Below, one piece after another: positions 27,496 through 48,183 of a DNA stretch of 64,000 nucleotides. The stretch comes from Pectobacterium carotovorum (GTDB lineage: Bacteria; Pseudomonadota; Gammaproteobacteria; Enterobacterales; Enterobacteriaceae), in the NCBI RefSeq assembly GCF_900129615.1, contig NZ_FQWI01000002.1:372001-436000 (forward strand), given 5' to 3'. The notes beneath the pieces are model-generated. The model was not told the origin of the DNA. It saw only the letters and a list, made by a program, of their open reading frames with translations, and did not search any database. The translations under genes and the position numbers were made by a program. Each line of letters begins with the position of its first letter. The stretch's first letter is position 1.

Positions 27496-28512
27496 TTACA
27501 GGCGTACCAACTGCTTGCCAAAGTGTTTGCTGTCTAATAAGTCGATAAAGGCTTGAGGCGCATTCTCTATTCCCTCAATAATATTTTCCCGATATTTTAA
27601 TCGCCCTTTCTCCACGGCATCCAATAGCCAGATGTTTGCTTCGGCATAGTCTTTGAACCATTCTGTCACAAGAAAAAAACGGCTTAGCGGGGCATCGGGC
27701 AGCGAAGAGAAAAATGCTACCGTGCTGGAAGCGTCAACGTCAGGATCCTGATTGTATTGTGCCGCACTGCCACAGACGGGGACTCTTGCACCTTCGTTAA
27801 GCAGTTTGGCAACAAAAAGCGAAACCCTGCCGCCAACGTTTTCAAAATAGATATCAATTCCGTTAGGGCAGGCAGCTCGCAAGGCGTGATTTAAGTCATC
27901 TTCTTTATAATTAATGCAGGCGTCAAAGCCTAATGTCTTAACGACATAGCGACATTTCTCTTCGCTTCCAGCCAAACCGACAACCCGGCATCCAGCCTGT
28001 TTACCTAATTGACCGACGACGGAACCTACGCCCCCTGACGCGGCGGAGACCACCAGCGTTTCTCCCGCTTTGGGTTTGGCAATTTTGTTCATGCCAAAAT
28101 AAGCGGAACGTCCCGGTGTACCCACCACGCCGAGAAAAATAGAGGGTGACAGAGCCGTTGGCGGCAGGCGGTGCGTAATAAAATCCTGAGGCGTGCCGAC
28201 ATAGTATTTCTGCCAGCCTGAAAAGGTGAACACACAATCTCCAACCTTAAAGTGTGGGTTCTTCGTTGCCACGACGTAGCCTACCGTTTCGCCTTGAATC
28301 ACTTCTCCCTGTTTGATTGGGCTCACATAGGCTGTGTTCTTGTTAAGCCGTGGGCGTGTATAAAGATCAATGGATAGCCATTTGTTTTCAACCAGATATT
28401 CGCCGGGCTGTAGTGCATTGATATGGCGTTCTTCGAGCCGGAAATCCTCTAACTGTGCGGGGCCATCAGGATGACGATTCAATACAATCAGCTTGTTTTC
28501 TAACGAGTTCAT
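27496..28512 (-). CDS. NADPH-dependent oxidoreductase, zinc-free MDR family
   Basis: 338 aa from the ATG at 28512, with AGGGA 6 bases upstream; a longer frame to 28533 is less likely. It belongs to the medium-chain reductase group of CurA/leukotriene B4 12-hydroxydehydrogenase type, which reduces alpha,beta-unsaturated ketones. WLSIDLYTRPRLN is the N-terminal hallmark. The Rossmann motif is VSAASGGVGSVVGQLGK (about 155-170). FDACINYKEDD, and NGIDIYFENVGG are also typical. There are no zinc ligands. As the last gene of the NRPS/PKS operon it may reduce a double bond in the product, since the PKS has no ER domain, or it may be an unrelated passenger. Confidence 0.85.
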   Translation of the reverse strand: MNSLENKLIVLNRHPDGPAQLEDFRLEERHINALQPGEYLVENKWLSIDLYTRPRLNKNTAYVSPIKQGEVIQGETVGYVVATKNPHFKVGDCVFTFSGWQKYYVGTPQDFITHRLPPTALSPSIFLGVVGTPGRSAYFGMNKIAKPKAGETLVVSAASGGVGSVVGQLGKQAGCRVVGLAGSEEKCRYVVKTLGFDACINYKEDDLNHALRAACPNGIDIYFENVGGRVSLFVAKLLNEGARVPVCGSAAQYNQDPDVDASSTVAFFSSLPDAPLSRFFLVTEWFKDYAEANIWLLDAVEKGRLKYRENIIEGIENAPQAFIDLLDSKHFGKQLVRL

Positions 28513-28564
28513 AATATTCCCTATATTTAGCATTCATTATGTTATGCACTACCTGCGGCGCTGA

Positions 28565-29191
28565 TCAGGCAGCGTTATCGTGTGCGAGTGAGGACCAGCG
28601 ATGCTTTGGCCATCGGAAACTGAAGATCACCAGCAGTAGCGTAAGAGGCCATCCGCTGATGAGGACAATCGTATCCATCGGCAGCCCAGGCTGGCGGGAA
28701 AGGAGGTAGATAATGATGGCTTTCACCAGATAAACCAGAATCCAGACCAGTGATACCTCGTTCCAGACTCGGACGTACTGCGGTGTGCCATAAACGGGGA
28801 GCGTCTTAAGCGCTGGCGTAGCTTGTTCCGCCAATGTTTGTATGACTGGACGCCCCTTGATGCTGTAAAGGGTAAAAATAATCACGGTTGATATTGCGCC
28901 GCTGACCGACAAAAAAACGCTCTCCTGATGGATATCAAACAGGATGACGCCTTCCAGATAAAGGTAGTGGCTAAGCCCCGACACAAGGATGAGAGCAATG
29001 ATTGGCAGATAGCCTTGCCAACGGCTGATGAGTTGCAGTACACCGGAATAGATCGCGGTTATTAACAGCGCGACGCCAGCCCCCCATTGTAAAAATGCGA
29101 TGTTGTAAATAACGACCGGTATGATGATGGTCAGAAGCGCATCGCGCGATACCAGATATCGCCAAACGGTTAACGACGGGGGATGGCCCAT
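28565..29191 (-). CDS. Six-TM membrane protein of the NRPS/PKS cluster
   Basis: 208 aa with six hydrophobic segments, at about 19-36, 38-56, 63-80, 90-110, 147-167 and 174-193. It resembles the VC0807/IspZ-like group of small integral membrane proteins, a weak recollection rather than a firm family call. AAGGAG lies 5 bases before the ATG. It sits between the NRPS and the oxidoreductase in the leftward operon. It is the only membrane protein of that operon, so export of the product or self-protection are possible roles. Neither can be shown from sequence. Confidence 0.6.
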   Translation of the reverse strand: MGHPPSLTVWRYLVSRDALLTIIIPVVIYNIAFLQWGAGVALLITAIYSGVLQLISRWQGYLPIIALILVSGLSHYLYLEGVILFDIHQESVFLSVSGAISTVIIFTLYSIKGRPVIQTLAEQATPALKTLPVYGTPQYVRVWNEVSLVWILVYLVKAIIIYLLSRQPGLPMDTIVLISGWPLTLLLVIFSFRWPKHRWSSLAHDNAA

Positions 29192-29255
29192 GTTTTCTCC
29201 TTACTTACGTCATAAAATCGCCGTTCTGCGTTGGAAACCGCAGACGGCGAATGTG

Positions 29256-32200
29256 TTATTGCCATACTTTTTTGAGCTGTTCGGCTATACGGGAAATGTG
29301 CGGTGCGTTCATCATTGAGATATGATCGCCGGACGTCGGCAGTACCGTCAGGCAACCTGAAGTGAGGCGACGCCACCCCAGTCCAGACTCTGGCAGACGG
29401 ATACGACCGGGTAAGATATCTTCCGCTTCGACGACCAGCACATCACCTGAGTAAAGCTCGCCACGGTAAGCGTCCGTCGCATAGATATGGGTTTGCAGGA
29501 TATTGATAAAGTCCTGAAATGCTCCAGGCCCAATCGACTGAGGAACCAGCCCCACACGTTTAAATTCAGCCAGAAAGCGCGACGTTCGTTGCGCATTGCT
29601 CATGTCTGCAAGCGACTGCTCCGACAGATCGAAAGACGCTCCGGTAAACAAAGCCACTTTATGCGCAAAATACGCCAGACGTTCAGCCTCGTTCATGTCT
29701 GCTGAGCCGTCGATGTTGATCTCTGGTGCCGGTTGATCCAACACTAACACCGTCGGTGTTATGCCTTTTTTCGCGAGCTGCTGCGCCATTTCAAAAGCAA
29801 TAGTTGCACCCAGAGACCATCCTCCTAATACCAGACGAGAGTGATGAACGATGTCGCTAGCTTCTGAGAGATAAAAAGCGGCAAGCGCTTTGATATCGGC
29901 GTTATAAGGCTGGTTAACGCTGAAATCGGGCACCTGAATACCATAGATCGGATAGCGCTCGCCCAATTCTCGCGCCAGCCCGGAATAGCACAGCACGTTA
30001 CCGCCTGCTGGATGGATCAGAAGCAACGTGGGGTTATCTTCAGGCTGCCCACGATTGATCGTCACCCTTGCGGCTTGAGTCTGCGATCCCTTTTCTTCAA
30101 TCACGTGGGCCAACTGGGCAATGCTGCTGTTTTCGAACAGTTGCCCCAGAGACAGGGATGTCCCAAAGTGCTGATTAACGCTCAGGATGAGCTTTAATGC
30201 GCTGAGAGAATTCCCGCCAAGGGTAAAAAAGCTCTCCTGCGTATCAATCGTCTCGCTTTGTAAAATATCGCGATAAATTTCATGCAGATCGTGTTCGCGC
30301 TGATTTTCCGGGGTATGGAATGCTACGCGCTTTTCTGCTGAGGGCAGGGGTAACGCGGCATAATTTATCTTACCGCTAGCAGTTAATGGCATTGCCTCTA
30401 GCCATACCCAGCGTTCGGGATGCATATAATCTGGCAGCTTTTTTTGCAGCGCCGTTTTTACTGTGGCCTGACTGGGTTCATCAATGCCGCACAGGTACGC
30501 GGTTAAGACGGTTTCCCCGTGGGGCAGCGTGTTTTGTTTAATGGCAACGTGGGTTGCATTAGCAACCTGTTGTAATGCCTGTTCGATCTCCGTCAGTTCA
30601 ACACGGTAGCCGCGCACTTTAACCTGACGATCCAAGCGCCCCATAAATTCAAGATTGCCATCAGGCAGGAAGCGACCTTTGTCACCGCTGCGATAAAGCC
30701 GCTCGCCCTCAAGATAAGGGTGGGGAATAAAGCGTGCGTGATTTTGATCTGGCAGGCCGATGTACCCTTCTGCGACATGCGAACCGCCCAGATAAATTTC
30801 GCCCGGTAAGCCGGCTGGAACGAGCTGGTGATAAGCATCAAGCAGCAGGACATGACTATCGGACAGAGGCTTACCGATGGGTAAATAGTCGCCTGAAAGG
30901 GAGCTGAGATCGTCCGGCACCGGATAGGTGGTGATGCCGACGGTGCATTCGGTTGGGCCATAATGATTGAGGATGCGGCAAGACGTTCGGAACTCGCGTA
31001 CGCGCTTGATGAGAGACAGAGGAACGCGTTCTCCGCCGATAACCAATAACTGACGAGGCAACAACGCTTCAGCCTGCGGTGAAGTCAATAACGTCGCTAA
31101 ATGCGACGGCGTAATCTTTATGCAATCGACCGGATAGTGCGCCAGATAAGCGAATAGCTCCTGTGGGGAGCGGAGTAATTCCGTGCTGATCACGTCTAAC
31201 TGACCCTGGTGAATCAGGGCAGGGAACAGCACCGTGTGTGCCAAATCGGTTGTGAAGGATGAAAACATGCCGTAGCGAGCATCGGGCGGCAGGTTGAGCA
31301 CGGGCCGAATGGCCTGACAGTAGTGGCTAAGCTGTGAGTGTTTGACACGAACGCCTTTCGGTTTGCCGGTACTGCCCGAGGTATAAATGATGTGAGCCGG
31401 GCCATCCGTAACCTGTGGCGGAGATGGATTGCTGACCGGCATTCTACTGCGATTTTGTCTTACGTAGAGGCAAGGGAGCCTGTCACCGGGTGCCTGTTCG
31501 TCGATGATGACACAGCGGGCGGCGGAGTTTTGCAAGATGAACTCAACCTGCTGAGCAGGGAGATCGATATCGATTGGAACATAGCATCCGCCTGCTTTTA
31601 ACACGGCCAGAATCGCGACGACGTAATACTCGCTTTTCGGCATGAACAGCGCGACGCACTCGCCATGAGCCATGCCGTCTTTCTGGAGCTGATGAGCCAG
31701 CTGGTTTGCCCGTTCATTGAGCTGAGCATAGCTGAACGTCCGGCCTTCACAACGAACCGCGATGGCATCGGGATGTTGCTGTGCCTGTTGTTCAAACTGC
31801 CGATGAACTGCAGGCGGGAACGCGTTAGGGGTCGGGCGGCACTGTGCGATTGTCGCGCGACGTTCTTCGTCGCTTAACAGTGAGATATCCCGAACGGTTA
31901 ACTGCGGCTGGGTGATTAAGGTTTCAAGAACCGTCCGCAGATCGTTCAACATACGCTGGATGGTGCTGCTGGAAAATAATGCGCTGCTGTAGTTCATGGT
32001 GAACAGCAGGCCGTCGCTATCCTTGTCTTCTTCTACCCATAAGTTCAGATCCAGTTTTGCGGTGCCGTAATCCACTTTTAACGGCTTATATTTGAACCCG
32101 CCATGGCTGCTGTGAAAATGGGGGAAGACCTGATACGTCAAGATTGCCTGGAAGATTGGATTGATCTGGGGATTACGCACATAGGTAATCTCGTCCAGAA

Positions 32201-33329
32201 TATAATTGAACGGCACGTCCTGGTATCTCAAGGTTTCTTCACACTCGGCGCGCGCGCCCTCAATCAGGGAGGCGACACTGGCATTAGGATCGATATCAAA
32301 ACGTAATGGCAGGGTATTCATGAATAGCCCCATCATGTTTTGCGTGGCAGGTAAATTTCGGTTGGCAAACGGTGCGCCGATGATGATTTCCTGCTGCCCG
32401 CTGTATTTATGCAGCAGGAGTTGGTATGCCGTGAGGATAACGTGGAATTGTGTCGCCTGATGCTGTGTCGCACAGGTTTGTAAGCGCTGGCAGAAAGACG
32501 CATCAAAGAACTGGCTGGCGATTCCCCCGGTGGTGCTCATTTTGGCCGGACGCGGGTAATCCGTTGCCAGATCTAACTGCCCTGTGATGCCATCCAGCTT
32601 CTTCGCCCAGTAGGCCAGCCCGGTCTGGTATTCGCCCTCGGTATACCACCGATCTTCCGCCAGTGCATAATCGGTGAACTGGAGCGTTTTTTCGATGGGT
32701 AATGTCCCGCCCTGCAGCAGACGAAAGTAGTTTTCCATGAGCATCTTGAAGAACACATTGACCGTCCACCCGTCGGAAATAATGTGATGAAATGTCAGGA
32801 ACAGGACATAGTCGTACTGATGGGTTTTGACCATATGGAGATAAACCAAGGGGCCATTCTCCAGATCAAAAATAATATTCCCTTTCGCCTTGGCTGTCTC
32901 CGAGACATATTTTTCAATGTCTTCTTCGCTGAATGCGGAGATATCTTCAAAGCTGAACGTGAAAGACATGTCGTCAGCAACGCACTGGCATACGTCGTTA
33001 TCGACCAGCCGGAATGTCGTACGCAGAATGTCATGTTGTTGCATCAGATAGTCGAGCGTTTGCTGTACTCGCTGCGGCTCCATGTCGTGCTCGATCCTGC
33101 AGGCAAGCACATAGGGATTGTTATAGACCTGGCTATCGTCAAGGTATTGGGAGAGCATCCAGATACGCTTCTGCGCGCTGGTCATGGGGAAATGTACTCT
33201 GCCGGGTGTCGCGTGCGGAACAATGGCCTTGCCTGAGGCTGTGTTGCCCGTTTTCTTCTTTTCTCTTGCCAGCTTTTTGAGTTCATCCAGGCTAAGCGAG
33301 GTCAGTTTTGCGGTGGGAAGCTGCGTCAT
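29256..33329 (-). CDS. NRPS module C-A-T-TE, predicted Asp-loading
   Basis: 1357 aa. Condensation domain (about 45-480) with intact HHIISDG at 181-187. Adenylation domain (about 510-1000) with YTSGSTGKPKGV at 649-660, NHYGPTE at 788-794 and catalytic Lys987. Carrier domain with LGGNSL, phosphopantetheine on Ser1041. Type I thioesterase (about 1095-1355) with GGWSLG, Ser1172, and a C-terminal GDHISM His. Aligned by eye to GrsA, the specificity residues read D-L-T-K-V-G-H-V-G, almost the Asp code of surfactin and bacitracin synthetases. It probably adds Asp to the chain delivered by the PKS and releases the product as acid or ring. Starts 77 bp after the PKS gene. Confidence 0.9.
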   Translation of the reverse strand: MTQLPTAKLTSLSLDELKKLAREKKKTGNTASGKAIVPHATPGRVHFPMTSAQKRIWMLSQYLDDSQVYNNPYVLACRIEHDMEPQRVQQTLDYLMQQHDILRTTFRLVDNDVCQCVADDMSFTFSFEDISAFSEEDIEKYVSETAKAKGNIIFDLENGPLVYLHMVKTHQYDYVLFLTFHHIISDGWTVNVFFKMLMENYFRLLQGGTLPIEKTLQFTDYALAEDRWYTEGEYQTGLAYWAKKLDGITGQLDLATDYPRPAKMSTTGGIASQFFDASFCQRLQTCATQHQATQFHVILTAYQLLLHKYSGQQEIIIGAPFANRNLPATQNMMGLFMNTLPLRFDIDPNASVASLIEGARAECEETLRYQDVPFNYILDEITYVRNPQINPIFQAILTYQVFPHFHSSHGGFKYKPLKVDYGTAKLDLNLWVEEDKDSDGLLFTMNYSSALFSSSTIQRMLNDLRTVLETLITQPQLTVRDISLLSDEERRATIAQCRPTPNAFPPAVHRQFEQQAQQHPDAIAVRCEGRTFSYAQLNERANQLAHQLQKDGMAHGECVALFMPKSEYYVVAILAVLKAGGCYVPIDIDLPAQQVEFILQNSAARCVIIDEQAPGDRLPCLYVRQNRSRMPVSNPSPPQVTDGPAHIIYTSGSTGKPKGVRVKHSQLSHYCQAIRPVLNLPPDARYGMFSSFTTDLAHTVLFPALIHQGQLDVISTELLRSPQELFAYLAHYPVDCIKITPSHLATLLTSPQAEALLPRQLLVIGGERVPLSLIKRVREFRTSCRILNHYGPTECTVGITTYPVPDDLSSLSGDYLPIGKPLSDSHVLLLDAYHQLVPAGLPGEIYLGGSHVAEGYIGLPDQNHARFIPHPYLEGERLYRSGDKGRFLPDGNLEFMGRLDRQVKVRGYRVELTEIEQALQQVANATHVAIKQNTLPHGETVLTAYLCGIDEPSQATVKTALQKKLPDYMHPERWVWLEAMPLTASGKINYAALPLPSAEKRVAFHTPENQREHDLHEIYRDILQSETIDTQESFFTLGGNSLSALKLILSVNQHFGTSLSLGQLFENSSIAQLAHVIEEKGSQTQAARVTINRGQPEDNPTLLLIHPAGGNVLCYSGLARELGERYPIYGIQVPDFSVNQPYNADIKALAAFYLSEASDIVHHSRLVLGGWSLGATIAFEMAQQLAKKGITPTVLVLDQPAPEINIDGSADMNEAERLAYFAHKVALFTGASFDLSEQSLADMSNAQRTSRFLAEFKRVGLVPQSIGPGAFQDFINILQTHIYATDAYRGELYSGDVLVVEAEDILPGRIRLPESGLGWRRLTSGCLTVLPTSGDHISMMNAPHISRIAEQLKKVWQ

Positions 33330-33406
33330 TATCGAGTCTCATTTTGTGACATTCGGTTTTACATTAGCGGCCGCCTTCGAGATGCATACTGAAGGCGGCC
33401 GTTCCC

Positions 33407-36400
33407 TTATTCCTGCAATAAGGCTTCCAGCTCGGTAAGGATCAGCGTTGCTAACCCTTTCACGGTCTGGTTCTGGTAAAACAGATCAACGCGAATATCG
33501 ATTTCAAATATGCCGGAAACGGTAGACACGACCTGTACTGCCAGCAGCGAGTTACCGCCCAGTTCAGTAAAGCTGTCGTTAACGCCGATCCCCGAGATCC
33601 CCAGAATCGACTGCCAGACTTTGACGATCTCCTTCTCGATGTCATTTTCTGGCGCGACATAATCCACAGAGAGGGCCGGTCGGGCATATCCTTCCGTTGC
33701 TTCGCTATTCTGCAAAATGAATTCAGGCGTTTCCTGTTCAGGAATCGACTCATAAATGAGCTGATCCAGATCGCTGGTGACGACGACTAACTGTTCAAAT
33801 TCCAGATGCGCAAGCTGGCGTTTTATCGCGTCCAGCCCTTCTGGCAACAGAATGTCTTTATCTGCCAGATTCACTTTTACTGCTGCTGTGGCTGCCGTTG
33901 AGGCGTTTTCTGACGTCGCGAGCTGATTGCCCATCGTCATCTTCATCAGCGTGTAGTTTTCCAGGACCAGCAGCGGAACGCCCTCTGGTGACAGGAACGT
34001 GATATCCATGACGATGGCGTTATCCTGCGGCTGATAGGCCTGCTTGAGCCTGGCGTGGGCGTAGCACTCTTTCCCCAGTGGCGATAAGAAGGTCATCTTG
34101 CCATAGCTGATAGGCAGGAAATTCTCCTGTGTAATCAATGACAGGCAGGAGATGGCCGTGGCATCAATCACTGCGGGGTGGTACGGGTAGCGGGTAAGAT
34201 CGTGCGTATAGTCGCTCCCCAGCACTTTGTGGATCAGCCATTCGTTATGGCCCTGAGCAATCTCGCGATGGTTGTTCCAACGCTGGCTAAATGACAGGAA
34301 ATTCTCGCCCGTGTTGGCATTTCCCAGCTCGGTGATAAATGGCGCGTAGGGAACCTGCGTGGTGCAGCGCTGTTTGATGGCGTCAATCGATTGTGGCGCG
34401 AGGTCAGCCGTTGGAGCGCCGTGGCCGATGCTTCCGAACGCGTGTTCTTGCCATGCCAGCTCAAGCACGCCCTGAGTCTTGAGGCTGAATTTATAGCCTT
34501 TCCCCTCTGGCGTGATGAATAGCCTCATCTGACGCGGCCAGGCATCGGTATAGATCACCGGCTTGGTCAACATCAGGTTCTTGACCTGAAGGCTTTCCTG
34601 AGATTTAAAGCCTGTCATGAATTCATGCAGCAGCGATAAGATTGTCGCTCCCACCAGTGAAGGTTGTTTCGCAAGGCGGTGCTCATCGATAACCCAGTCC
34701 TGCGTGGTGAGATTGACCTGATAGCTTTCCTGCATGCCTTCACGCTCAAGGAGCGTCAGCAGGTCGCCTTTGGCTTCTTCAACGGCAGCCAGCTTGCTGT
34801 TTTTCTTCTCCTGCAGCTGTTTTCCCCAACGGACGGCCATTCCCACATCGCCCCATTTTCCCCAGTTCAGCGAGACGGTGCGCCCACGGCGATGCTGGTT
34901 GCGATAATGCGCAAAGGCATCCATAAACGCGTTACCCGAGCAGTAATCAATGCGGGCTTCGTCACCGACGATGGAGGTAATAGAAGAGAATAAAATAAAG
35001 AAGTCAGGCTGTTTGTCCTGCAGCAGCTCATCCAGAATGAGCGATCCTGCCACTTTGGGATCGAGCACGTTGGCGCAATCGGCGTCATTCTTCAGAGCAA
35101 TGATACCGCCGCCAGCCACGCCTGCCGTATGGAACACGCCATCGACCTGCGGGAACGCGGATAACATCTCGCGCATACCGTGATAGTCATTCACGTCGAC
35201 CTGCGCCAGATGTATCGTGTTGCCACGGGCTTCCAGACGTAAAACGCTCGCCAGTTTTTCACTGATAGGATCGTCAACCGGATGCTGTTGGATCCAGGCT
35301 TGCCACTCTTCACGCGGTGGTAACGCCGCACGGTAAGTCAGGATGATCGTCGCATTACTGTTTTCAGACAGGTGGTTGGCAAGTAAGATTCCCAACCCAC
35401 CGAGGCCACCAGTGATGAGGTAGACGCCGTCGTCTTTCAATTCCGCAGGTAAACCGATATCGTCCTGTTTCAGATGCACGGCCTGGTAACTTTCTTCCCA
35501 GCGCTGGTTTCCGCGGTAAGCCACCAGATTGCCGTGTGTTGCGATATGGCTTTCTGCAATCAGGCTGTGGGCAAACTCATCAAGCTGTTCGGCGTTTTGT
35601 TTAAGATCGATATCCACCAGGTGGCACTGCACTTCAGGATACTCGTGATAGAACACGCGCGACGGCCCGACCAGTAGCGCATTCTCTGGTGAAGCGATGC
35701 GCTCACCCATCACGCTGAACGTGTTGCTGGTGGCGAAGGTCACATGCAGATCGTCCAGCAAATTCTCGTTCACCAGCGCCTGCTGGAGATAGAGAGCAGG
35801 GTAGAACGTGTTCAGCGGTGAAGAGAGATAGGTATGCTCAAGCGGCTGGACCTGTTCCGCCGCCGTCAGGTTCCATAAATACAGGATGCGTGATGGACGT
35901 AACCCTTGTCCTGTCAGGCTTTTCAGCAGCCGGACATAGTCGGCGCGTGAGGATACATTGAGGGTGTATTGGCTTTCGGAAAGCGTTTCCTGATACTGCA
36001 TTCCCGGGCTGACGAAAAAGACCTTATGCCCGTCCTTTTCCAGTAGTTGCTTCGCACGTTCGGCGATACCCAGCGTATCCGTCAGCAGCAGCCAGCAGGT
36101 GTTCTCAGCTTCAACGCGTTTGCCCGCCATGTATTTCGCCGGAATGGTTTTCTTCCAGGTCGGCATATAGAACCAATCGCCGATATCCGCCTGTTTCCGC
36201 TTTTTAGCTTTAACGGATTGCTCACTCTGCATGTCATTACTGGCTGACGACAGGGCTGGCAGGGCGAAGCGTTTCCGCTCAAAAGGGTAGCCCGGCAGCG
36301 GGATACGACGACGGTGCTGTTCTGGATGATGCTGATGCCAGGGAACGTTTACGCCGCTTGCCCAAAGCGCGCCTAGCGTCGACAGGAGATGCTCGCCGGA

Positions 36401-39048: not shown

Positions 39049-39321
39049 TTACTTTTTGCTACCTGCGACGCCAGCAGTAACCCGGCTGATAAGGCTTTGC
39101 AGGTTAGATGCCGACGGGTGTTGCAATGCTGCTTTGATTGAAACAGGAATGGCTGGAATAGACTTCGCATGCCAGTACTTCTTGGTGTTAGGAAGGATTT
39201 TCTGGCCAATCGCATAGTAGCTAGCGGGCTTGGATGAATTTTGGTGACTCAGAACAAATTTAATTGCCGAAGCCACTTTCGCTTTGACTGCCGAGGCAGC
39301 GTTCAATTGATTTGCAGACAT
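39049..39321 (-). CDS. Small basic protein of unknown function in the NRPS/PKS operon
   Basis: 90 aa from the ATG at 39321, with AGGTGG 7 bases upstream; a longer frame to 39366 adds a hydrophobic leader without a ribosome site. I do not recognise a family. It is Ala/Ser/Lys-rich, has no Cys, and is clearly basic. An amphipathic N-terminal helix (SAVKAKVASAIKFVLSH) is followed by a Tyr/Trp-containing centre and a helix ending AGVAGSKK. Its fixed place between the carrier-protein gene and the PKS suggests a function in the pathway: helper, docking protein or self-protection. It is not a carrier, thioesterase or MbtH protein by motif. Confidence 0.65.
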   Translation of the reverse strand: MSANQLNAASAVKAKVASAIKFVLSHQNSSKPASYYAIGQKILPNTKKYWHAKSIPAIPVSIKAALQHPSASNLQSLISRVTAGVAGSKK

Positions 39322-39420
39322 GGTATTACCACCTATTATCAGTGAAATAAGGATGATGAAACACATTGCCCATTGTTGGGCGGTTATTCCCCTGGAGTAT
39401 AAATACGCTTTTTGGCGTAA

Positions 39421-39693
39421 TTACTTCTTGCTGCTTGATTTCCCAGCGTGTATTTCGCTAATACGCTTGCTTAGCATCTGTACCGTTGGGTATTGGAATA
39501 AATCAACAATAGAGATAGGTGACTCCATTTTGTTTTTTATTTCGCGATAAACCTTGGACATCAGCAGGGAATTTCCGCCTGCATCGAAAAAGTTCTCTTG
39601 GATAGAGACTTTCGGATTGTTGAGTACGGTCCGCCAGATAGAAATAATATTTTTCTCTATCTCGGAAGGTAATATTGCTTTGTCATTTGACAT
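39421..39693 (-). CDS. Stand-alone carrier protein (PCP/ACP)
   Basis: 90 aa. One phosphopantetheine-binding domain: EIEKNIISIWRTVL, then VSIQENFFDAGGNSLLMSKVY, with attachment Ser42. The C-terminus is Lys/Ser-rich (AGKSSSKK), resembling the end of the adjacent 90-aa protein. The gene starts 10 bases after the stand-alone adenylation gene, so it most likely receives that enzyme's aminoacyl group. The GGNSL form is peptidyl-carrier-like. Confidence 0.9.
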   Translation of the reverse strand: MSNDKAILPSEIEKNIISIWRTVLNNPKVSIQENFFDAGGNSLLMSKVYREIKNKMESPISIVDLFQYPTVQMLSKRISEIHAGKSSSKK

Positions 39694-39703
39694 TTTTTCA
39701 CCA

Positions 39704-41215
39704 TTAGTTATTTACGCAGGAACACAGCTTGGATTTATCAATTTTTCCATTGGGGTGCGTTGGCATTTTTTCCAACGCAACGAAATGAGAGGGCACCATG
39801 AAAAAAGGCAGCGTCTTGGCAAGGTGCGCTTTTATCTCTTGAATATCGATGTGCTTCTGATGCCGTAATACATAAAAGGCTGAGAGTGATGGCGCCGCGT
39901 TTTCTGAGCGCTTTTCGAGAATCACGGCAGCATGGTTAATTTGCGGTAGCGCCTGTATGTGCGTTTCTATTTCCGCCAGCTCAATACGGTGTCCACGCAA
40001 TTTAACCTGGCTGTCTATTCGGCCAATGAACTCCAGAACGCCATCGACGCGCTGCTTAACCCAGTCGCCGGTTTTATACATTTTCTGCCCAGTCTGATGG
40101 TTAAACGGGTCATCAACAAATCGCTCCTGCGTCAGCTTTTCCGCATGCAGATAGCCTTTTGCCAGAATATCCCCTGCCAGATAAAGCTCACCGCTTTCCC
40201 CCACATCGACAGGCTGTTGCGCCTCATCTAATACATAAGCGGCGGCATGAGGGATAGGCTTGCCAATCGGGGCAATTTTTTCTTCTGCTCCCGGCTGGCA
40301 GAGCCAATGACAGGCAAAGATTGTTGCCTCGGTCGGGCCGTAGAGATTGTGGATCTTTCCCGGATATTGCAGGGAGAGATCGTTGACCAGCGTTTGATCG
40401 AGCGCCTCGCCGCCAGAAAAGATATGGCATAGAGAGGTGCAGCGGGATAGCACCTCCGTATCCACAATGACGCGCAGTGCTGTCGGCACGAACTGTGCGA
40501 CCGTGACCTGATGACGATGCATAAATTCAGCCAGCAGCTGCGGATCGTACTTGGCATCCTCGGTAATGACCGCACAGCTTGCGCCAGCGATCAGCGGCCA
40601 GAAAATTTCCCACACTGAGACGTCAAAGCTGAACGTGGACTGGTTAAGGACAACATCGTCGTGCTGTAGCACGAAGGCGCTTTGCATCCATGCCAGATAA
40701 TTGACCACCGTTCTGTGGCTGACCATGACGCCCTTTGGCGTTCCGGTGGAGCCGGAGGTGTACATCACATAACAAAGCTGTTCTTCACTAACTGAAGGAA
40801 GCGTGGGGGTAGCCTGAACGCTCAGATCGATCTGATTGATGTCAACGATCTCACGATGGCTCGGTGCCAGCGTAAGCGCGTGTGCATTGTCGGTAATAAC
40901 CAGACGCGCATCGGCATGATTGACCATGTAATCCAGACGCTCGTGCGGATAGTAAGGATCAAGCGGTAAATAGCACGCACCGGTTTTCAATACGCCGAGC
41001 AGGCTGACGATCAGATTCGGGCTTTTATTCAAATAAATACCGACAACATCCTTCGGCTTTACGCCCCGCTGCAATAGATCGCTCGCCATGGCGTTTGCCC
41101 GCTGATCCAATTGTCGGTAGGTCAACGTTTCTGTATCGCTTCTCAGGGCGATAGCGTCCGGCGTCTGATGCCGCTGCTGTTCAAATAAGGTGTGGAGCAC
41201 TCTTGCCGATGCCAT
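39704..41215 (-). CDS. Stand-alone amino acid adenylation enzyme
   Basis: 503 aa, an adenylation domain without C or T domains. Core motifs: MYTSGSTGTPKGVMVSH (about 151-167), FSFDVSVWE (about 196-204), NLYGPTE, the hinge and GHRIELAEIE, and catalytic Lys in NGKIDKSKL near the C-terminus. Asp198 aligns with the amino-group-binding Asp235 of GrsA. The code read by eye is D-V-W-Q-F-G-L-I-F, nearest in my memory to Ser-type codes but not an exact match. Partner of the carrier protein encoded just downstream. GAGGATC precedes the ATG. Confidence 0.9.
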   Translation of the reverse strand: MASARVLHTLFEQQRHQTPDAIALRSDTETLTYRQLDQRANAMASDLLQRGVKPKDVVGIYLNKSPNLIVSLLGVLKTGACYLPLDPYYPHERLDYMVNHADARLVITDNAHALTLAPSHREIVDINQIDLSVQATPTLPSVSEEQLCYVMYTSGSTGTPKGVMVSHRTVVNYLAWMQSAFVLQHDDVVLNQSTFSFDVSVWEIFWPLIAGASCAVITEDAKYDPQLLAEFMHRHQVTVAQFVPTALRVIVDTEVLSRCTSLCHIFSGGEALDQTLVNDLSLQYPGKIHNLYGPTEATIFACHWLCQPGAEEKIAPIGKPIPHAAAYVLDEAQQPVDVGESGELYLAGDILAKGYLHAEKLTQERFVDDPFNHQTGQKMYKTGDWVKQRVDGVLEFIGRIDSQVKLRGHRIELAEIETHIQALPQINHAAVILEKRSENAAPSLSAFYVLRHQKHIDIQEIKAHLAKTLPFFMVPSHFVALEKMPTHPNGKIDKSKLCSCVNN

Positions 41216-41346
41216 GGTCTGATCCTCTGGTGATGCCAGGGGTCACGCCGGGCATCCTTTTACGCGTTATGCAGGTACGGCACACATGCACTATGCCGAT
41301 GAGTAATTGCCGCTGAGTAATATTGCTGCTGAACAATGTGCTTTGA

Positions 41347-41976
41347 TTATGATGACGCTTCTTGTTGCTCCGCAGGTGCTGGTGACGTGGCGTTTTCCGC
41401 TGTCTGTGGCACGCTTTCCCCTGCGGGAATACTGGGTCTGATCGCAGCATCGGTCAGAAAATCGATGACGCGCATGAGCGCTTCAGGCGCGGGTTGACGT
41501 TTTACCTGCGTGTGAATGCTGTATTTAGCGCGTGTGTCTGTAGCTCGGGTCTGCGCTGACTTGTGTGATACCCGACCAGCCATTTTGACTTTGAACGGCC
41601 CCCATCCCAGTGACGCCGCCAGATTGCCGTCTTCTCCGGTATCATCGGATGAAGATTCACTCTGTGTGACTTCAAGTTCGAAATCGATCGTCCCTTCTTC
41701 AATAGAAATAATCGGATGGGTAATCGCGGCAATGAGCGGTATGCGCATCGTTTTTGTCACTGCACCTTTTGCGACTCCGCTTTCGTCAATAAGCGTTTCG
41801 TCGTAGTCGAATTGGATGGCGACAGCTTTATTATTTTGAATGCAGACGGATAATAGAAAATCCGTATAGGCTTTGCTGGCTTGAACCTGTGCGTTAATCA
41901 TTGCCTGTAATGGCCCGCTAATCATATTTTCCAGCGGTAGCGCATTAATAACAGAACCGATAAATTGTGAATCCAT
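41347..41976 (-). CDS. DUF2589-like protein A
   Basis: 209 aa from the ATG at 41976, with GGAGG 6 bases upstream; a TTG four codons earlier overlaps that site. The pattern is that of DUF2589 proteins: an amphipathic helix (SGPLQAMINAQVQASKAYTD), a beta-sandwich-like core (TKTMRIPLIAAITHPIISI, then EEGTIDFELEV), and PEALMRVIDFLTDAAIRPSI near 180. A Pro/Ala/Glu-rich tail follows. No signal peptide or TM segment. First gene of the leftward biosynthetic operon, 131 bp before the adenylation gene. A paralog heads the endolysin operon 5 kb away. Function of the family is not known to me. Confidence 0.75.
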   Translation of the reverse strand: MDSQFIGSVINALPLENMISGPLQAMINAQVQASKAYTDFLLSVCIQNNKAVAIQFDYDETLIDESGVAKGAVTKTMRIPLIAAITHPIISIEEGTIDFELEVTQSESSSDDTGEDGNLAASLGWGPFKVKMAGRVSHKSAQTRATDTRAKYSIHTQVKRQPAPEALMRVIDFLTDAAIRPSIPAGESVPQTAENATSPAPAEQQEASS

Positions 41977-42301: not shown

Positions 42302-45300
42302 ATGATGAAGAATAGAAAAACGGTCTTTGAAATTATCTCTGAATGGTCACTGAAAAGTCCCGAGAAGACGGCGGTGGAATTTAATGGCGACAGGCTGAAT
42401 TATCAACAACTAGAGTCTCAGTCGCGCCGTTTGGCCGATTATTTGTTATCACATTATCCAGATAATAAACGGGGAAGAATTGCCGTTTATCTGGAACCTG
42501 GTGTGATGATGCCCGTGGTCTTGCTAGCTATTTTAAAAGCAGGGCATACCTATGTTCCGCTCTCGCATTTTCATCCGTCAGAAAGAATTACGCAGATCCT
42601 TGATGATTCTTCGACATTTTTACTTATTTCCACGCGAGCGATGTTAAATAAAACGGCCATCGATAAGGTTTTTCCCTCCACGATGGTATTAGAGGATATC
42701 CATTATTCTGCTGAGCCTGTGGCGACGCTGCCACCCGTTTGCGAAAACGATCTGGCTTATATTCTCTATACCTCTGGTTCTACAGGGAAACCAAAAGGGG
42801 TGGCCATTGAACACCGAAACCTGAGTTATTATCTGAACTGGTTTAATGAGGATGTGTGGCCAGAGACCCGTGCGACGCTTCCTCTGACATCGACACTCAG
42901 CTTTGCCGCTGCCGTGACACAGCTTTATGCGCCTTTATTGCGCGGCGACACTCTATTTATTTTGCCTGCCGGCAGCTTGAATGAGCCGGAGGTGTTATTA
43001 CGCTGGCATCAACAGCATCCCGACGGTGCCATTTATTGCGTGCCGACCGTTTGGGATGAGCTGCTGCGCTATCAGGCATCTTCTTCTCATGCGTGGGCAT
43101 TACCTAAAACGGTCTTTCTTTCCGGCGAGCCCGTCTCTTTTGATTTAAAAGAGCGTACGTTCCAGCAGATTCCTGATGTCAGGCTCTTTAATCTGTATGG
43201 CCCGACGGAAACGACGGCCAACTGCTCATTTGCTGAATTAAAGCCGGGAAAAAGTGTGACGCTTGGTAAGGCACTGCGTGGCAGCGAAATTATGATCGTG
43301 GATGAGAACCTGCGTCCCGTGGCTGAAGGGCAAGAAGGGGAAATTTGCGCGTTCGGTGAAGGCGTCGCCCGTGGCTATATTAACCGCGACGAATTAACAC
43401 AGCAGCGTTTCTTCACCCATGTTCGAGCCGATAAACGCTCTTGGGGGCACCGCACTGGCGATCTAGGGAAAATGACGCCAGAAGGGGAGATCCTGTATCT
43501 GGGACGTATCGATCGCCAGATTAAGATTAATGGCATTCGTATCGAGCCTGAAGAAGTCGAAATTGTGTTACGTCAGCATGGCGATATCGACAAGGCGCTG
43601 GTGCGGCCGATTCAGGAAAACGGGCGTCAGCGTCTGGTGGCCTATCTGGTGAGCCGTAACCCGTCGCTTGCCACGAACGATCTGCGCCGCTTCTTGCAGG
43701 ATAAACTGCCGCGAGCGATGCATCCGTCTCACTTTATTATGCTGGAAACCCTGCCCAAATTGCCTAACGGGAAATTGGATGTGAGCCGGCTTCCAGAGCC
43801 TTGTCCGCAGCGCCCTGAGTTGGGATATCCTGTTAAAGCCGCAGGTAACGAGCTGGAACAGGAACTGATCGATATCTGGCAAGAGGTGCTTGGCTTTCGT
43901 GAACTCGGCGCCAACGATAACTTTTTCGATTTAGGGGGCGATTCGCTTCAGGCGATGAAAGCCCGGCTACTGATTAGAAAACGGCTGTTTAGTGAAATCG
44001 ACTACCCGTTATTTTTCAACAATGCGACGCCCCATCTGCTGGCTTTCATCGTCCCTTACTATGTGAACGATGACGAGCCTACGTCTGACGAGAACAACGC
44101 GGATATCGAGGCACTCGCACCCTCATCGCAGCAGCGTTATTTTCTGACGCTGGACCAGCTCAGCTCGGAGCCGTCGGCCTATCAATTGGCTTTTCGTCTG
44201 ACGATAAAGGGCCCACTGGATGAGTCTGCTGTGGAGTGGAGTATCCGGCGTATTCTGGAAGGTAATCCGGTGTTACGAACCCGCTTCGATCTGGATCGGC
44301 TACAGTGCTTTGAGGGGGATTATCCGATCGAGGCGATCCCGATTGAACGCCTGACGGCGTTCTCTCCTGATGGGGGAAAGAATACACTGAGCGACCGACG
44401 GCTGCTGGAGCTGATCAGCACACCTGAAATGGATGTAGAACACTCGCCGCTCATCTGTTTTCATCTGATTTCGCTGACAACACAACGACATATTCTGCTG
44501 GGGCGTGTACACCATACGGTATTCGATCATGACGCCATTGGCTTGTTCTTCCATCAGTTTGTTGATTACGTCCGTGCTTATAGCGCTGGCGATCGCAGCT
44601 ATCGAATAGGCAGTGAAGAGCGCTATCTGCGCTATCGGCAGCAGCAACGTCGCACCAAAGATCAATGCCATCCGAGAGAGCGTCAGTTCTGGCTGGATAA
44701 GATGGAGGATTACCTGGCTGCAGGAGCTGATGCGACGGCATTCCCGCTCAGTGACTGCCAGGACGGAGAAAATTATTGGTGCATTTTGTCAGATACGCTG
44801 ACGCAGGCGATAAAGCACTATGCCCAACAGCATCGCACGACGCCGTTTGTCTGCATGCTGACCGCTTTTACCCAACTGCTCAAAACGACAAACTATCGTC
44901 ATGTTCCCATCGGTATTCCGGTGTCGAACCGTATGTTGACTGAAAACGCCACCACAATAGGCTGTTTCGTTAACATGGTGGCTTACTACGATGATTCGCC
45001 GGCTCAGGAATCTTTCAGCACGCTTTTGGCCCGCAGCCAGAATAAGATCCATGCTATTTTGGACCATCAGACATTGCCCTATGATGTGTTAATGGCCGAT
45101 GTCCGGGCTAAAGGATGGTCTGATAAGCTGCGTTTTCCGGTCAGTTTTAACTATCTGACGGCCATGCCGCCAGCCGTACAGATCAATGAAACTGCCTATC
45201 AGATTACGGATATTGCTAATCATCAGGCTCGACTGGATTTAACGCTCTCTGTTTATGACGATGAGGCTCTGGCGCTGTGTTTTAATTATCAGCAGGCGGC

Positions 45301-45400
45301 TTTTAACGCGGAAGAGATTGCTGCACTGTCCCATCAGTACCATCAAATTCTGATGGATGTCGTACAGCCAAATACGGCTCTCTTGTGCAGTAATCTGTAG
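42302..45400 (+). CDS. NRPS A-T-C with altered adenylation pocket
   Basis: 1032 aa. Adenylation domain (about 8-500): LYTSGSTGKPKGV at 155-167, NLYGPTET at 297-304, catalytic Lys491. Carrier domain with LGGDSLQ, Ser548. C-terminal condensation domain (about 605-1030) with HHTVFDHD, His738 and Asp742, where the usual Gly of HHxxxDG is His. The residue aligned with Asp235 of GrsA is Ala202. The code reads A-A-T-Y-F-S-L-A-N, so the substrate may lack an alpha-amino group (an aryl, hydroxy or fatty acid) or be a beta-amino acid. Probably loads the starter and condenses it onto the next carrier-bound unit. GGAAGGA precedes the ATG. Divergent from the main operon. Confidence 0.88.
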   Translation: MMKNRKTVFEIISEWSLKSPEKTAVEFNGDRLNYQQLESQSRRLADYLLSHYPDNKRGRIAVYLEPGVMMPVVLLAILKAGHTYVPLSHFHPSERITQILDDSSTFLLISTRAMLNKTAIDKVFPSTMVLEDIHYSAEPVATLPPVCENDLAYILYTSGSTGKPKGVAIEHRNLSYYLNWFNEDVWPETRATLPLTSTLSFAAAVTQLYAPLLRGDTLFILPAGSLNEPEVLLRWHQQHPDGAIYCVPTVWDELLRYQASSSHAWALPKTVFLSGEPVSFDLKERTFQQIPDVRLFNLYGPTETTANCSFAELKPGKSVTLGKALRGSEIMIVDENLRPVAEGQEGEICAFGEGVARGYINRDELTQQRFFTHVRADKRSWGHRTGDLGKMTPEGEILYLGRIDRQIKINGIRIEPEEVEIVLRQHGDIDKALVRPIQENGRQRLVAYLVSRNPSLATNDLRRFLQDKLPRAMHPSHFIMLETLPKLPNGKLDVSRLPEPCPQRPELGYPVKAAGNELEQELIDIWQEVLGFRELGANDNFFDLGGDSLQAMKARLLIRKRLFSEIDYPLFFNNATPHLLAFIVPYYVNDDEPTSDENNADIEALAPSSQQRYFLTLDQLSSEPSAYQLAFRLTIKGPLDESAVEWSIRRILEGNPVLRTRFDLDRLQCFEGDYPIEAIPIERLTAFSPDGGKNTLSDRRLLELISTPEMDVEHSPLICFHLISLTTQRHILLGRVHHTVFDHDAIGLFFHQFVDYVRAYSAGDRSYRIGSEERYLRYRQQQRRTKDQCHPRERQFWLDKMEDYLAAGADATAFPLSDCQDGENYWCILSDTLTQAIKHYAQQHRTTPFVCMLTAFTQLLKTTNYRHVPIGIPVSNRMLTENATTIGCFVNMVAYYDDSPAQESFSTLLARSQNKIHAILDHQTLPYDVLMADVRAKGWSDKLRFPVSFNYLTAMPPAVQINETAYQITDIANHQARLDLTLSVYDDEALALCFNYQQAAFNAEEIAALSHQYHQILMDVVQPNTALLCSNL

Positions 45401-45408
45401 AGAACGCT

Positions 45409-45441
45409 AACGAAGGTGTCCCGAATTGAGACACCTTCGTT
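45409..45441. terminator. Hairpin between convergent A-T-C NRPS and holin-like genes
   Basis: AACGAAGGTGTC and GACACCTTCGTT form a 12-bp perfect stem with a 9-nt loop, eight bases past the NRPS stop. No T-run on either strand. A probable two-way transcript end. Confidence 0.5.
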
Positions 45442-45598
45442 GAGGAACCCGCATATAGGCATTGGCTTTATTGGCAAGGCATTGACTGCGTGGTTGAATA
45501 TGTCAGAAAAGGGAAAGCAGTAGCAGGAAGGCAACGGGGTGCCTTCCTGCCATATGGGCGATTTACGGCTGAGAGCGATGACTGTTGAGAATCGCGCA

Positions 45599-46030
45599 TT
45601 AATGGCCTGACGAGTTTTTATCATCGGGCGTTTTTCCCCGAGCCTCGTCGATTGAATGAACGCCTTTCGTCGCCTGCTTTATTTCTGATGCGACATCCAG
45701 AATATCGTTATTCTCTCGATAGCTGAAGAAATTTGCCAGCAGCGTAACCAGGCCTACGCTAATAGCACCAACCAGATAACCTAATCCTATTGCGTTCTCC
45801 ACTTTACTGATATTAACGTGCAGCAATTCGGCGATAATGCCTACCAGTGAGAAGGCTGCTGAAATGCTGATGATGATAATGATTAATGCGGCAATGAGCT
45901 TGTCGTAATTATTCAGTTTCTGCGGTCGCCAAAAAAAGGAAATACTGAGGCCGCCGAATAATCCTGCAACTGATGCAATAATATCACTGATCAGAATGTC
46001 ATAAATGATAGGGAGTTGTGAAGTATCCAT
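45599..46030 (-). CDS. Holin-like three-TM membrane protein
   Basis: 143 aa with three hydrophobic segments (about 10-32, 44-68 and 82-104), then a charged cytoplasmic-type tail (RENNDILDVASEIKQATKG, then GKTPDDKNSSGH). Size, number of segments and position directly after an endolysin gene fit a class I holin. No sequence family was recognised, so this rests on topology and context. Last of the three leftward genes, 56 bp after the endolysin. It could let the endolysin, or proteins and metabolites, cross the inner membrane. Confidence 0.6.
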   Translation of the reverse strand: MDTSQLPIIYDILISDIIASVAGLFGGLSISFFWRPQKLNNYDKLIAALIIIIISISAAFSLVGIIAELLHVNISKVENAIGLGYLVGAISVGLVTLLANFFSYRENNDILDVASEIKQATKGVHSIDEARGKTPDDKNSSGH

Positions 46031-46086
46031 AATATATCCACGATGGTTTTTTCTATGAAATAGCGTTTTTTAACTTTTTTTGAATA

Positions 46087-46548
46087 TTAATTTGGTGTGA
46101 TGGCCTGTAGGAAAAGTGCTTTCTCTGCTTCTCTACGGCGCAGGAGCCCTTCCACGACTTGTTGACCATCTTTGTCCCAGCGTGGGAATTGATCGGCTGC
46201 GGCAGCATAGCCACCTTGGTTAAGCAGGCGTAATAATGTCGACGTCTTCAGGCTATTGACGCCCAGGTTGTAGGTAAATGACGTTAATGCACCAAATTGA
46301 TTTCCGTTGAGATCAACGGTCACATAATGCTGAACACCGGCCTCCGCCGTTTTTAAGTCCTGCCGTAACAATGAATCCGCTTCCTGAAGGGTAATTCCAT
46401 TATCAAAGTTTTCATTCGGCAGTATTAAATGTCCATATCCAATCGTCCATTTACCTGCTGTGTCACGATACTTTGTTAATTTCAGACCTTCAAAACTCTT
46501 AATCAGCGAGAGACCTGCTTCATTGATCGTATCTGGAATATTAGCCAT
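46087..46548 (-). CDS. T4-type lysozyme/endolysin (GH24)
   Basis: 153 aa, soluble, without signal peptide. The GH24 catalytic triad E-x8-D-x5-T is intact in SFEGLKLTKYRDTAGKWTIG (Glu20, Asp29, Thr35), followed by GYGH. TSFTYNLGVNSLKTSTLLRLLN and GLLRRREAE are also endolysin hallmarks. It cleaves the glycan strands of peptidoglycan and needs a holin to reach them. The ATG overlaps the end of the DUF2589-like gene B by eight bases, with GAGGAA inside that gene, so the two are translationally coupled. No other phage gene is near. Confidence 0.93.
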   Translation of the reverse strand: MANIPDTINEAGLSLIKSFEGLKLTKYRDTAGKWTIGYGHLILPNENFDNGITLQEADSLLRQDLKTAEAGVQHYVTVDLNGNQFGALTSFTYNLGVNSLKTSTLLRLLNQGGYAAAADQFPRWDKDGQQVVEGLLRRREAEKALFLQAITPN

Positions 46549-47134
46549 TGCTTTTTTCCTCTTGCGTTATTCGGGGGAGAACGAGATTGGTGTATTCATC
46601 AATTAACCGCATGATGCTTTCTGGAGGATCCAGCGCAGTGAATTGCATTTCTATATCGACGTGCTGACTATTTCTTCCTTTTTTGTTTTTGCCTGAAGGC
46701 GACATGCTGACGTGAAAATTAGTGATGTTATGAGCGTCTAAAGATGAGGTGATTTCGTCCTGGCTGACCGAATCGGTTCTCACTGTCATTTGCACTTTCA
46801 TTTTTTCCAGCATCAACCCCCTTGGAGTAGAAAGGGCAACCAGTGGCAGTTCGACGTGGTGTCGGGGATCGAGTTGAATCGCAACGGTCTTCGGGGTTAA
46901 CACGCCATCAGCGTCACGTTCAAAAAAAGGCTCGAGAGTCTGTTGATATTGATGAGCGATAAATTGATTGGCGGCGGTGGCAGCATGCTGCATACCGCGA
47001 GCAATATCTGCTAGCGTCATTGCCTTTGATGACTCCGTGAGATGGTTCTGTGGGGAATGGATATTTTCCCCTTGGGTATTATCACCATTTTTTGTTTTTT
47101 TATTTTCCCCCGTGATCCAACTCTTGAATGACAT
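46541..47134 (-). CDS. DUF2589-like protein B
   Basis: 197 aa. After a hydrophilic 35-residue start (Lys/Asn/Gly-rich) it shows the same three blocks as the paralog at 41347-41976: an Ala/Gln-rich helix (DIARGMQHAATAANQFIAHQ), PKTVAIQLDPRHHVELPLVAL with LEKMKVQMTV, and LDPPESIMRLIDEYTNLVLP near the end. No signal peptide or TM segment. AAGGAG precedes the ATG. First gene of the leftward operon with endolysin and holin-like genes. The function is unknown; pairing with a lysis cassette suggests a cargo or release-related role. Confidence 0.75.
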   Translation of the reverse strand: MSFKSWITGENKKTKNGDNTQGENIHSPQNHLTESSKAMTLADIARGMQHAATAANQFIAHQYQQTLEPFFERDADGVLTPKTVAIQLDPRHHVELPLVALSTPRGLMLEKMKVQMTVRTDSVSQDEITSSLDAHNITNFHVSMSPSGKNKKGRNSQHVDIEMQFTALDPPESIMRLIDEYTNLVLPRITQEEKSNG

Positions 47135-47568
47135 ACTCTCTCCTTATCTTAATTTCCAGTTGCTAAACATAAACAATCTGGAGGGGAATGCATGATAATT
47201 TGAGAAGACGTTAACAGTTAATGAAAAAATAACGTATCAGTCATTGTGTTGGAGGCGTCATGTAATATGACATAGGCCGTTTTTTCACTATTTTAAAATT
47301 GATTGCGTTAGGTGTTTTTGTATGTTTGTGGAATTATTACACTATGGTGGTTTATTCTGAGATAATGTTTCATTGCTAGTGGTATTCCTTTTCAGTTTTT
47401 CATCTGAAATTATCATGTCAGTATGCGCGAATAAATATGGCTAAGTCTATAAGGTAAACGGCATATGCCAAATGGCGCAACATCATATCTTTCAAGATAG
47501 GCTAAAACTTATTAGAGAGTACTTTTAAATATGGCATTTTTAAAATAAAGGTAAATGGAGATTGCACA
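47135..47568. other. Divergent control region of the lysis operon and regulator
   Basis: 434 very AT-rich bases. Dyads seen: GTCAT-GTAAT-ATGAC (about 47258-47272) and the palindrome GGCATATGCC (47460-47469). Promoters for both the DUF2589-B operon and the regulator gene must be here, but I could not fix one. No gene is supported. Confidence 0.5.
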
Positions 47569-48183
47569 GTGAATGTTGTTATTATTGACAAATCCCCTGT
47601 TTTCATTCAGGGCTTATCTGTTGGACTGAATGATTTTATGCACGATGTCAATATTGTTGGCGTAAATGAAATTGATGATGTATGGCCTTGTCTTGAGGAG
47701 ATGAACAACGCTTTTATTTTACTAAATTGTAATAAAGAAAATGGAGAGTGCAGTTTATTCCTTGAGGAACTGCATGAGAAATATATTGGTGTTAGTGTAA
47801 TTATTATGGTTGATGCGATTGAAAGACATATTTTGAATAACTATCTTAAACACCATGTTATGGGCGTCATTCTTAAAACATCGCCGGTTGATTCTATTGC
47901 TCAGGCATTAAAAACGGTGTCGATGGGTATGGTCTGTTTACCGGATGATGGGGTGATCTATGAGGGGTGGAGTGTCGATAACAGTGTAAAAGGCAAACTC
48001 AGTGAAAGGCAGCATGAGGTTCTACAGCTGATTGCGTCAGGGGCTTCTAATAAACAAATCAGTCGAACATTAAACATCAGTGCAGGAACCGTGAAGTCAC
48101 ACCTGGAGTCGATTTTCAGGCGGCTTAATGTGCGTAACAGAACACAGGCTGCGATCGTACTATTAGAAGAAGAACGAAGATAA
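47569..48183 (+). CDS. NarL/LuxR-type regulator with degenerate receiver
   Basis: 204 aa from a GTG with GGAG 9 bases upstream. Residues 1-125 follow a response-regulator receiver pattern (MNVVIIDKSPVFIQGL at the start, VSVIIMVDAIE, then VMGVILKTSPVDSIAQALKTV with the conserved Lys). At the phosphorylation site the sequence is FILLNCNKENG, with Asn/Cys where Asp is expected, so ordinary phosphorylation is unlikely. The LuxR helix-turn-helix is at about 140-200 (LSERQHEVLQLIASGASNKQ, NISAGTVKSHLESIFRRL). No partner kinase is nearby. Divergent from the lysis operon, it is the only regulator in the cluster. Confidence 0.85.
   Translation: MNVVIIDKSPVFIQGLSVGLNDFMHDVNIVGVNEIDDVWPCLEEMNNAFILLNCNKENGECSLFLEELHEKYIGVSVIIMVDAIERHILNNYLKHHVMGVILKTSPVDSIAQALKTVSMGMVCLPDDGVIYEGWSVDNSVKGKLSERQHEVLQLIASGASNKQISRTLNISAGTVKSHLESIFRRLNVRNRTQAAIVLLEEERR

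Follow-up and report, generated by a model that had tools for sequence, protein, structure and literature searches.

A phage-type lysozyme and DUF2589 cassette that may stand in for a pump in a hybrid NRPS-PKS locus of Pectobacterium carotovorum

How does the product of an assembly line leave the cell when the genes that make it have no dedicated pump among them? The question is raised by a block of genes between leuU and metY in a 64,000-nucleotide stretch of Pectobacterium carotovorum DNA (assembly GCF_900129615.1, contig NZ_FQWI01000002.1, positions 372,001 to 436,000; the whole stretch is hereafter called the window). Searches with ARAGORN, Rfam and Pfam find in this tRNA-bounded block a hybrid cluster of nonribosomal peptide synthetase (NRPS) and polyketide synthase (PKS) genes, interleaved with genes for a phage-type lysozyme, a membrane protein and a LuxR-type regulator. 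Natural-product clusters commonly carry their own pump, and the answer we favour is that a phage-derived module (the DUF2589 proteins a and b, the lysozyme, a holin-like protein and the LuxR-type regulator) does here the job of a pump composed of a major facilitator superfamily (MFS) and an HlyD-type protein, a proposal that in our judgement stands evenly balanced. Put as a history and judged from sequence comparison, the DUF2589-lysozyme-holin-like module may have taken over product release by a regulated, probably lytic, opening of producer cells, which we also regard as an even call.

The evidence that carries this proposal comes from orthologous assembly lines. Orthologs of the PKS were found in Vibrio sp. 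THAF64 (L043; 65% identity), V. tetraodonis (64%), G105 and G231 (68%) and G956 (71%), where G-numbers denote genomes and L-numbers loci; G956 is a Brenneria-group genome (the genus of G336), and G105 and G231 belong to another enterobacterial genus. Their clusters resemble the window block in having the same core (A-T-C, A, PCP, PKS, C-A-T-TE, membrane protein and reductase; see list), albeit with one difference in the carrier protein (PCP), which is free in the block but in G105, G231 and G956 forms one protein with A. A pair of MFS and HlyD genes is present in 4/4 of the tracts that are long enough (THAF64, G105, G231 and G956, from three lineages), the MFS gene lying between those for C-A-T-TE and the membrane protein and the HlyD-type gene following that for the reductase (the Vibrio pair by Pfam); the exporter genes of G105 and G231 are 99-100% identical. 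These exporter-type tracts contain neither DUF2589 nor lysozyme. Cassette-type tracts gave no tblastn match to the pump, and across the entire genomes of 14 cassette carriers (the source genome, referred to as own, 12 other Pectobacterium genomes and G336) no match to the G105 MFS protein exceeded 26%, as in G001, which is without the block. The genomes of G956, G105 and G231 have no DUF2589 anywhere, and those of G336 and G960 have it twice each.

In a PKS tree of 18 rows (G020 and G021 excluded) the 13 cassette-type proteins form one clade (100/99) and the five exporter-type proteins fall outside it. V. tetraodonis is labelled exporter-type here although its locus stops inside C-A-T-TE and no pump is visible, and G960 cassette-type although its cluster contig stops earlier and its two DUF2589 genes are on a separate contig. 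Rooting the tree at Vibrio, an assumption of ours, would make the pump ancestral and exchanged once. The arrangement of core and cassette recurs in Brenneria alni and B. salicis at 70-77% identity. No further orthologous PKS was seen, the remaining matches being at 34-44% among 295 genomes of the family and, for four others, at 38-43% among 369 genomes of the class. The pocket motifs of the three A domains are nearly identical in eight rows of both types, so the products should be alike; an O-methyltransferase near the cluster in THAF64 (by Pfam) and in V. tetraodonis and G956 (by eye) suggests that they may differ by a methyl group. Read by eye at presumed GrsA positions, the code of C-A-T-TE seems to resemble Asp codes, and that of A-T-C seems to be without the Asp usual in amino-acid activators.

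The block and its boundaries comprise the following features.

27347..27433, + strand: tRNA-Leu (GAG), leuU, the left boundary (ARAGORN; Rfam)
27496..28533, - strand: ER-like double-bond reductase of zinc type, belonging to the conserved core (Pfam PF16884/PF00107)
28565..29191, - strand: 208-aa membrane protein, also in the conserved core (VC0807 family matched weakly, 20.8 bits, cut-off 65)
29256..33329, - strand: NRPS C-A-T-TE (Pfam)
33407..38908, - strand: type I PKS module KS-AT-KR-DH-ACP (Pfam)
39049..39321, - strand: small basic protein of ~90 aa (no Pfam family; its start, the second ATG, is our choice)
39421..39693, - strand: free carrier protein, PCP (Pfam PF00550)
39704..41215, - strand: free adenylation enzyme, A (Pfam PF00501)
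41347..41976, - strand: DUF2589 a (Pfam PF11655, 82.5 bits, cut-off 23)
42302..45400, + strand: NRPS A-T-C, divergent from DUF2589 a (Pfam)
45599..46030, - strand: 143-aa membrane protein, called holin-like solely for its size, its hydrophobic segments and its position
46087..46548, - strand: GH24 phage-type lysozyme, endolysin (Pfam PF00959, 3e-44; PHROG endolysin, 1.2e-57; PDB lysozymes)
46541..47134, - strand: DUF2589 b (Pfam PF11655, 59.9 bits, cut-off 23)
47569..48183, + strand: orphan LuxR/GerE-type regulator (GerE, 75.1 bits, cut-off 23.5)
48494..48570, + strand: tRNA-Met (CAU), metY, the right boundary (ARAGORN; Rfam)

By Pfam the cluster is a true NRPS-PKS hybrid, with modules of C, A and T and of KS, AT and ACP and a terminating TE. 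DUF2589 a precedes the A enzyme by 131 bp on the minus strand, and PCP, the small gene, PKS, C-A-T-TE, the membrane protein and the reductase follow at spacings of 10-140 bp; the genes for DUF2589 b and the lysozyme overlap by 8 bp, and the holin-like gene is 56 bp further on. We infer that these closely spaced minus-strand genes may form operons. The reductase is 66-68% identical to its counterparts in G105, G231 and Vibrio and 75% to that in G956, and the 208-aa membrane protein is kept in both cluster types. The small basic protein was seen by blastp and tblastn only in cassette-type clusters, where its conservation (50-95%) is below that of its neighbours, and may serve the cassette version as an accessory. 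As for the regulator, a Response_reg receiver scores 23.3 bits in Pfam, under the cut-off of 30.2. Among the 14 block proteins scanned against Pfam and PHROG there are no capsid, tail, replication or integrase genes, so the block does not look like a prophage remnant, and the window holds no repeat of the leuU end that could be an att site. In the PKS module KR stands ahead of DH by Pfam, an order that seemed unusual to us.

Much of this had been described in an earlier note on the same DNA. Its hybrid NRPS-PKS cluster between leuU and metY is borne out by ARAGORN, Rfam and Pfam, as are, by Pfam, the three A domains, the one PKS module, the one C-A-T-TE and the one orphan regulator; argG and yhbX, which it placed between the same tRNA genes in E. 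coli, do lie in that interval in K-12. It was also right that the block has no dedicated exporter, and the orthologous clusters that are free of lysis genes have one (4/4 of the tracts that are long enough). Of the holin-like/endolysin operon it proposed, the GH24 endolysin holds, and the partner is holin-like in the limited sense given in the list. The two DUF2589 genes and the small basic open reading frame (ORF) go beyond that note.

The proteins of the cassette look maintained. The lysozyme motif E..D..T (FEGL..Y.D..G..TIGYGH) is intact in 20/21 rows, G036 being without the Asp, and no signal sequence is seen by eye. Three hydrophobic segments are present in the holin-like protein, whose core is conserved across five relatives. 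Median dN/dS values (NG86, over 14 genomes with G021 excluded; A-T-C is absent from the gene list) are 0.07 for DUF2589 a, 0.18 for DUF2589 b, 0.08 for the lysozyme, 0.14 for the holin-like protein and 0.09 for the regulator, a range that indicates purifying selection. Lysis genes showed no DNA similarity to phage records; DUF2589 a matches one phage record, weakly, and four plasmid records. In its GH24 endolysin and small membrane protein the cassette is like the lysis cassettes of phages. It is unlike them in that the block comes without capsid, tail or replication genes, has the DUF2589 pair and a LuxR-type regulator, and is under purifying selection on a chromosome. AlphaFold2 models of DUF2589 a and b (mean pLDDT 53.0 and 59.4) were too poor for a fold search, and against PDB sequences the a protein (E 0.39) and the a profile (E 0.44) gave non-significant matches and b gave none.

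From these parts a route of release can be sketched. Producer cells would turn the block on, and in their cytoplasm the assembly line would build a capped, malonate-extended peptide. The holin-like protein would then give the lysozyme access to the cell wall, the DUF2589 pair would assist, perhaps as an envelope-associated scaffold, and the product would exit on opening of the envelope, probably via lysis of a minority of cells. Here we infer holin activity, lysis, co-regulation, a subpopulation and the identity of the product.

How the block is distributed over its site bears on whether cluster and cassette belong together. We examined the leuU-metY interval in 23 of 24 congeners, that is, other Pectobacterium genomes (loci L049-L071; G019 was excluded as its leuU lies near a contig end). 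The whole block is present at the same site in 12/23, with ORFs near full length in 10 and broken genes in G020 and G021, and this recurrence at one place makes it more than chance. In G002 the whole block survives at the site in decayed form, and none of the 23 intervals holds a core without a cassette. Neither cluster is carried by 8/23 congeners: the intervals of G001, G011, G014 and G015 are near-empty (G015 has two short traces of the block), those of G005, G009 and G016 contain, respectively, a transposase-like ORF, integrase-like and VgrG/Rhs-like ORFs, and integrase-like and PKS-like fragments (all such names were given by eye), and in G010 rimP is not reached within 20 kb.

The two remaining congeners, G006 and G007, have the same cassette and regulator at the same site beside a cluster for a ribosomally synthesised and post-translationally modified peptide (RiPP) instead of the NRPS-PKS genes. 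In G007 (L055 1323-7818; the G006 counterpart is in L054) this cluster encodes a YcaO cyclodehydratase, a nitroreductase-type dehydrogenase and a papain-like peptidase (Pfam), together with a 119-aa precursor that ends cysteine-rich and proteins of 400 and 763 aa, these last three without a family. The cassette proteins of G006 and G007 group together (99/95); a 2-kb rimP-nusA marker places G006 beside G022 (0.97) and G007 beside G008 and G021 (0.89). The simplest reading of these trees is that cassette and RiPP cluster would have moved as a unit into the same site, with the qualification that a short marker from right beside the block was used and that neighbours move together in any case. 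Elsewhere a relative of the RiPP cluster lies in the Tistrella mobilis plasmid pTM3 (L263), where the cassette is absent. A YcaO query found 0/295 genomes of the order at 1e-40, a result that is uninformative as it lacks a known positive.

The core and the cassette, which the earlier note described as joined, are on these comparisons not one inseparable unit: the core stands alone in G105, G231, G956 and two Vibrio, and the cassette is found without the core in G006 and G007 (with RiPP genes), in G015 and in L112-L114. That note had named independent variation of lysis and biosynthetic genes between strains as evidence against itself; by that test the strict claim fails, yet the mode of the variation, pump or cassette, is the one that a release function predicts. 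Its interpretation is supported in part, and the idea of lysis-linked release has more in its favour than could be known from the letters alone.

Several observations weigh against release by the cassette. The holin-like protein belongs to no convincing family and has only weak mixed matches (phrog_1024 in 4/5 members, best E 0.022; Bax1-I, 0.00027, in one member), and no obvious spanin is seen by eye among ORFs of at least 40 aa at 45300-47700. As to co-regulation, the motif shared by the two divergent promoter regions was matched or beaten in 10/40 shuffles (G002 and G021 were excluded from the second region, and the comparison did not include the RiPP promoter). With a single switch on the PKS tree, the mutual exclusivity of pump and cassette is not replicated. 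The Tistrella RiPP relative has no pump within ~9 kb, judged by eye on GC-rich ORFs, so being without cassette or pump it offers no second exchange of one for the other. DUF2589 pairs occur without a nearby lysozyme in the other enterobacteria G048 and G056, hence lysozyme is not an obligate partner. Finally, the leuU-metY interval is an integration hotspot.

This last point opens the way for an alternative we consider unlikely, namely that cluster and cassette met at a hotspot by coincidence and have unrelated jobs, the dedicated pump having been lost as general efflux suffices. The varied cargo of the site (transposase, integrase fragments, VgrG/Rhs-type, RiPP, near-empty) is what such a coincidence would leave behind; core and cassette are also found apart, and general MFS pumps are present in the genomes. 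It fits less well with cassette genes in 12/12 core-bearing tracts at the site, albeit two with broken genes, or with the arrangement shared by the two Brenneria species. Moreover, DUF2589 a shares the strand of the A enzyme and sits upstream of it, and it is precisely the cassette clade that has no pump.

Another alternative, quite unlikely to our minds, sees the cassette as a self-contained device for competition or altruistic lysis with a cargo of its own, such as an RNase-type toxin, and the metabolite cluster as riding along. It draws on G015 (L083 10329-14833) and L112-L114 (~1120-6421), where the cassette occurs without NRPS-PKS genes and beside an RNase A-like gene (PF18431; 35 bits in L113 over a cut-off of 27, and 20.8 bits, below it, in G015). 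These cassette-only loci contain the lysozyme (two in L112-L114), DUF2589 a and b, the holin-like protein, which in L112-L114 is 49-50% identical, and the regulator, with an integrase-like ORF near L112-L114. Against this stands the window block, in which no such toxin gene was found; nor would a self-contained device account for the pump-or-cassette pattern. A barnase-like identity for a 177-aa protein in the G015 cassette, proposed by eye, found no Pfam support and was dropped.

DUF2589 itself is patchily distributed. It occurs in 20/59 relatives (17/25 of the genus, own included, and 3/34 others) and in 3/369 genomes of the class sample, own included. In IMG/VR, DUF2589 a is encoded in 71 loci, and for the 68 besides L112-L114 DUF2589 b lies within 1 kb in 64/68 and a GH24 lysozyme within 3 kb in 0/68, some of these loci being cut by contig ends. 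The viral-contig pairs are thus neighbours, whereas in the window block the A-T-C, holin-like and lysozyme genes lie between a and b. An exact-pattern scan of viral contigs found no relative of the holin-like protein, yet L112-L114 encode one. Of 18 other loci, mostly bacterial and with L112-L114 included, 11, from fewer lineages, have a lysozyme within 1 kb and seven have none. Very unlikely, we think, is that the DUF2589 pair builds a particle or sheath for storing or carrying the product, with the lysozyme remodelling the wall in a non-lytic way. The neighbouring pairs in 64/68 lysozyme-free viral loci, as a structural pair might be, and the low-confidence hint in both models of a long N-terminal helix followed by strands may speak for it. 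Against it stand the PDB sequence search, with no structural relative, and the poor quality of those models (pLDDT 53 and 59).

By eye, 23/71 of the IMG/VR loci share a protein that starts with a peptidoglycan-binding-like stretch. A Burkholderia stagnalis plasmid (L105 ~15001-17117), from another class, encodes a 72% identical DUF2589 a that adjoins DUF2589 b and a lysozyme. The Vibrio plasmids L106 and L107 have DUF2589 pairs with a conserved ~91-aa protein, and their annotation names TcdA/TcdB-like proteins as well as, in L107, a YcaO-like one. G162, from the genus of G336, has an unrelated-looking DUF2589 pair and no orthologous PKS.

Release by the cassette, the reading we prefer, has a known counterpart in type 10 secretion, which PMC10847048 describes, with Serratia ChiWXYZ and Yersinia entomophaga YenLC among the systems, as non-phage clusters of holin, endolysin and spanins that serve the lytic release of a large protein toxin by a specialised subpopulation. 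The likeness lies in a non-phage setting for a phage-type wall hydrolase and a small membrane protein, with a regulator and a possible cargo close by, and by this analogy the cassette may work like a type 10 secretion system. It differs in its cargo, which would be a small molecule, and in its DUF2589 pair, and with a holin that is putative and no spanin in sight we stop short of classing it as one. We put forward tentatively, as possible rather than probable, that it is a distinct phage-derived release system, neither pump nor type 10, with exchangeable cargo (NRPS-PKS products, RiPPs, RNase-like proteins) and with the DUF2589 pair as a working part.

In the open literature searched, nothing that we read describes such a coupling of cluster and cassette, and the name DUF2589 turned up in one paper. 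PMC9125672 assigns 18 cluster families to Pectobacterium; PMC6963963 discusses coronafacic acid and a syringomycin-like NRPS with no holin, lysozyme or YcaO, and in PMC6989131 the terms we sought are absent. If the release reading is true, it would give a first functional lead for DUF2589, and a DUF2589 pair with a lysozyme beside exporter-less clusters would make a rule for genome mining. Orthologous lines that come with a pump or with a phage-type cassette offer a natural comparison, by which release of small molecules through programmed opening or death of the producing cell becomes directly testable.

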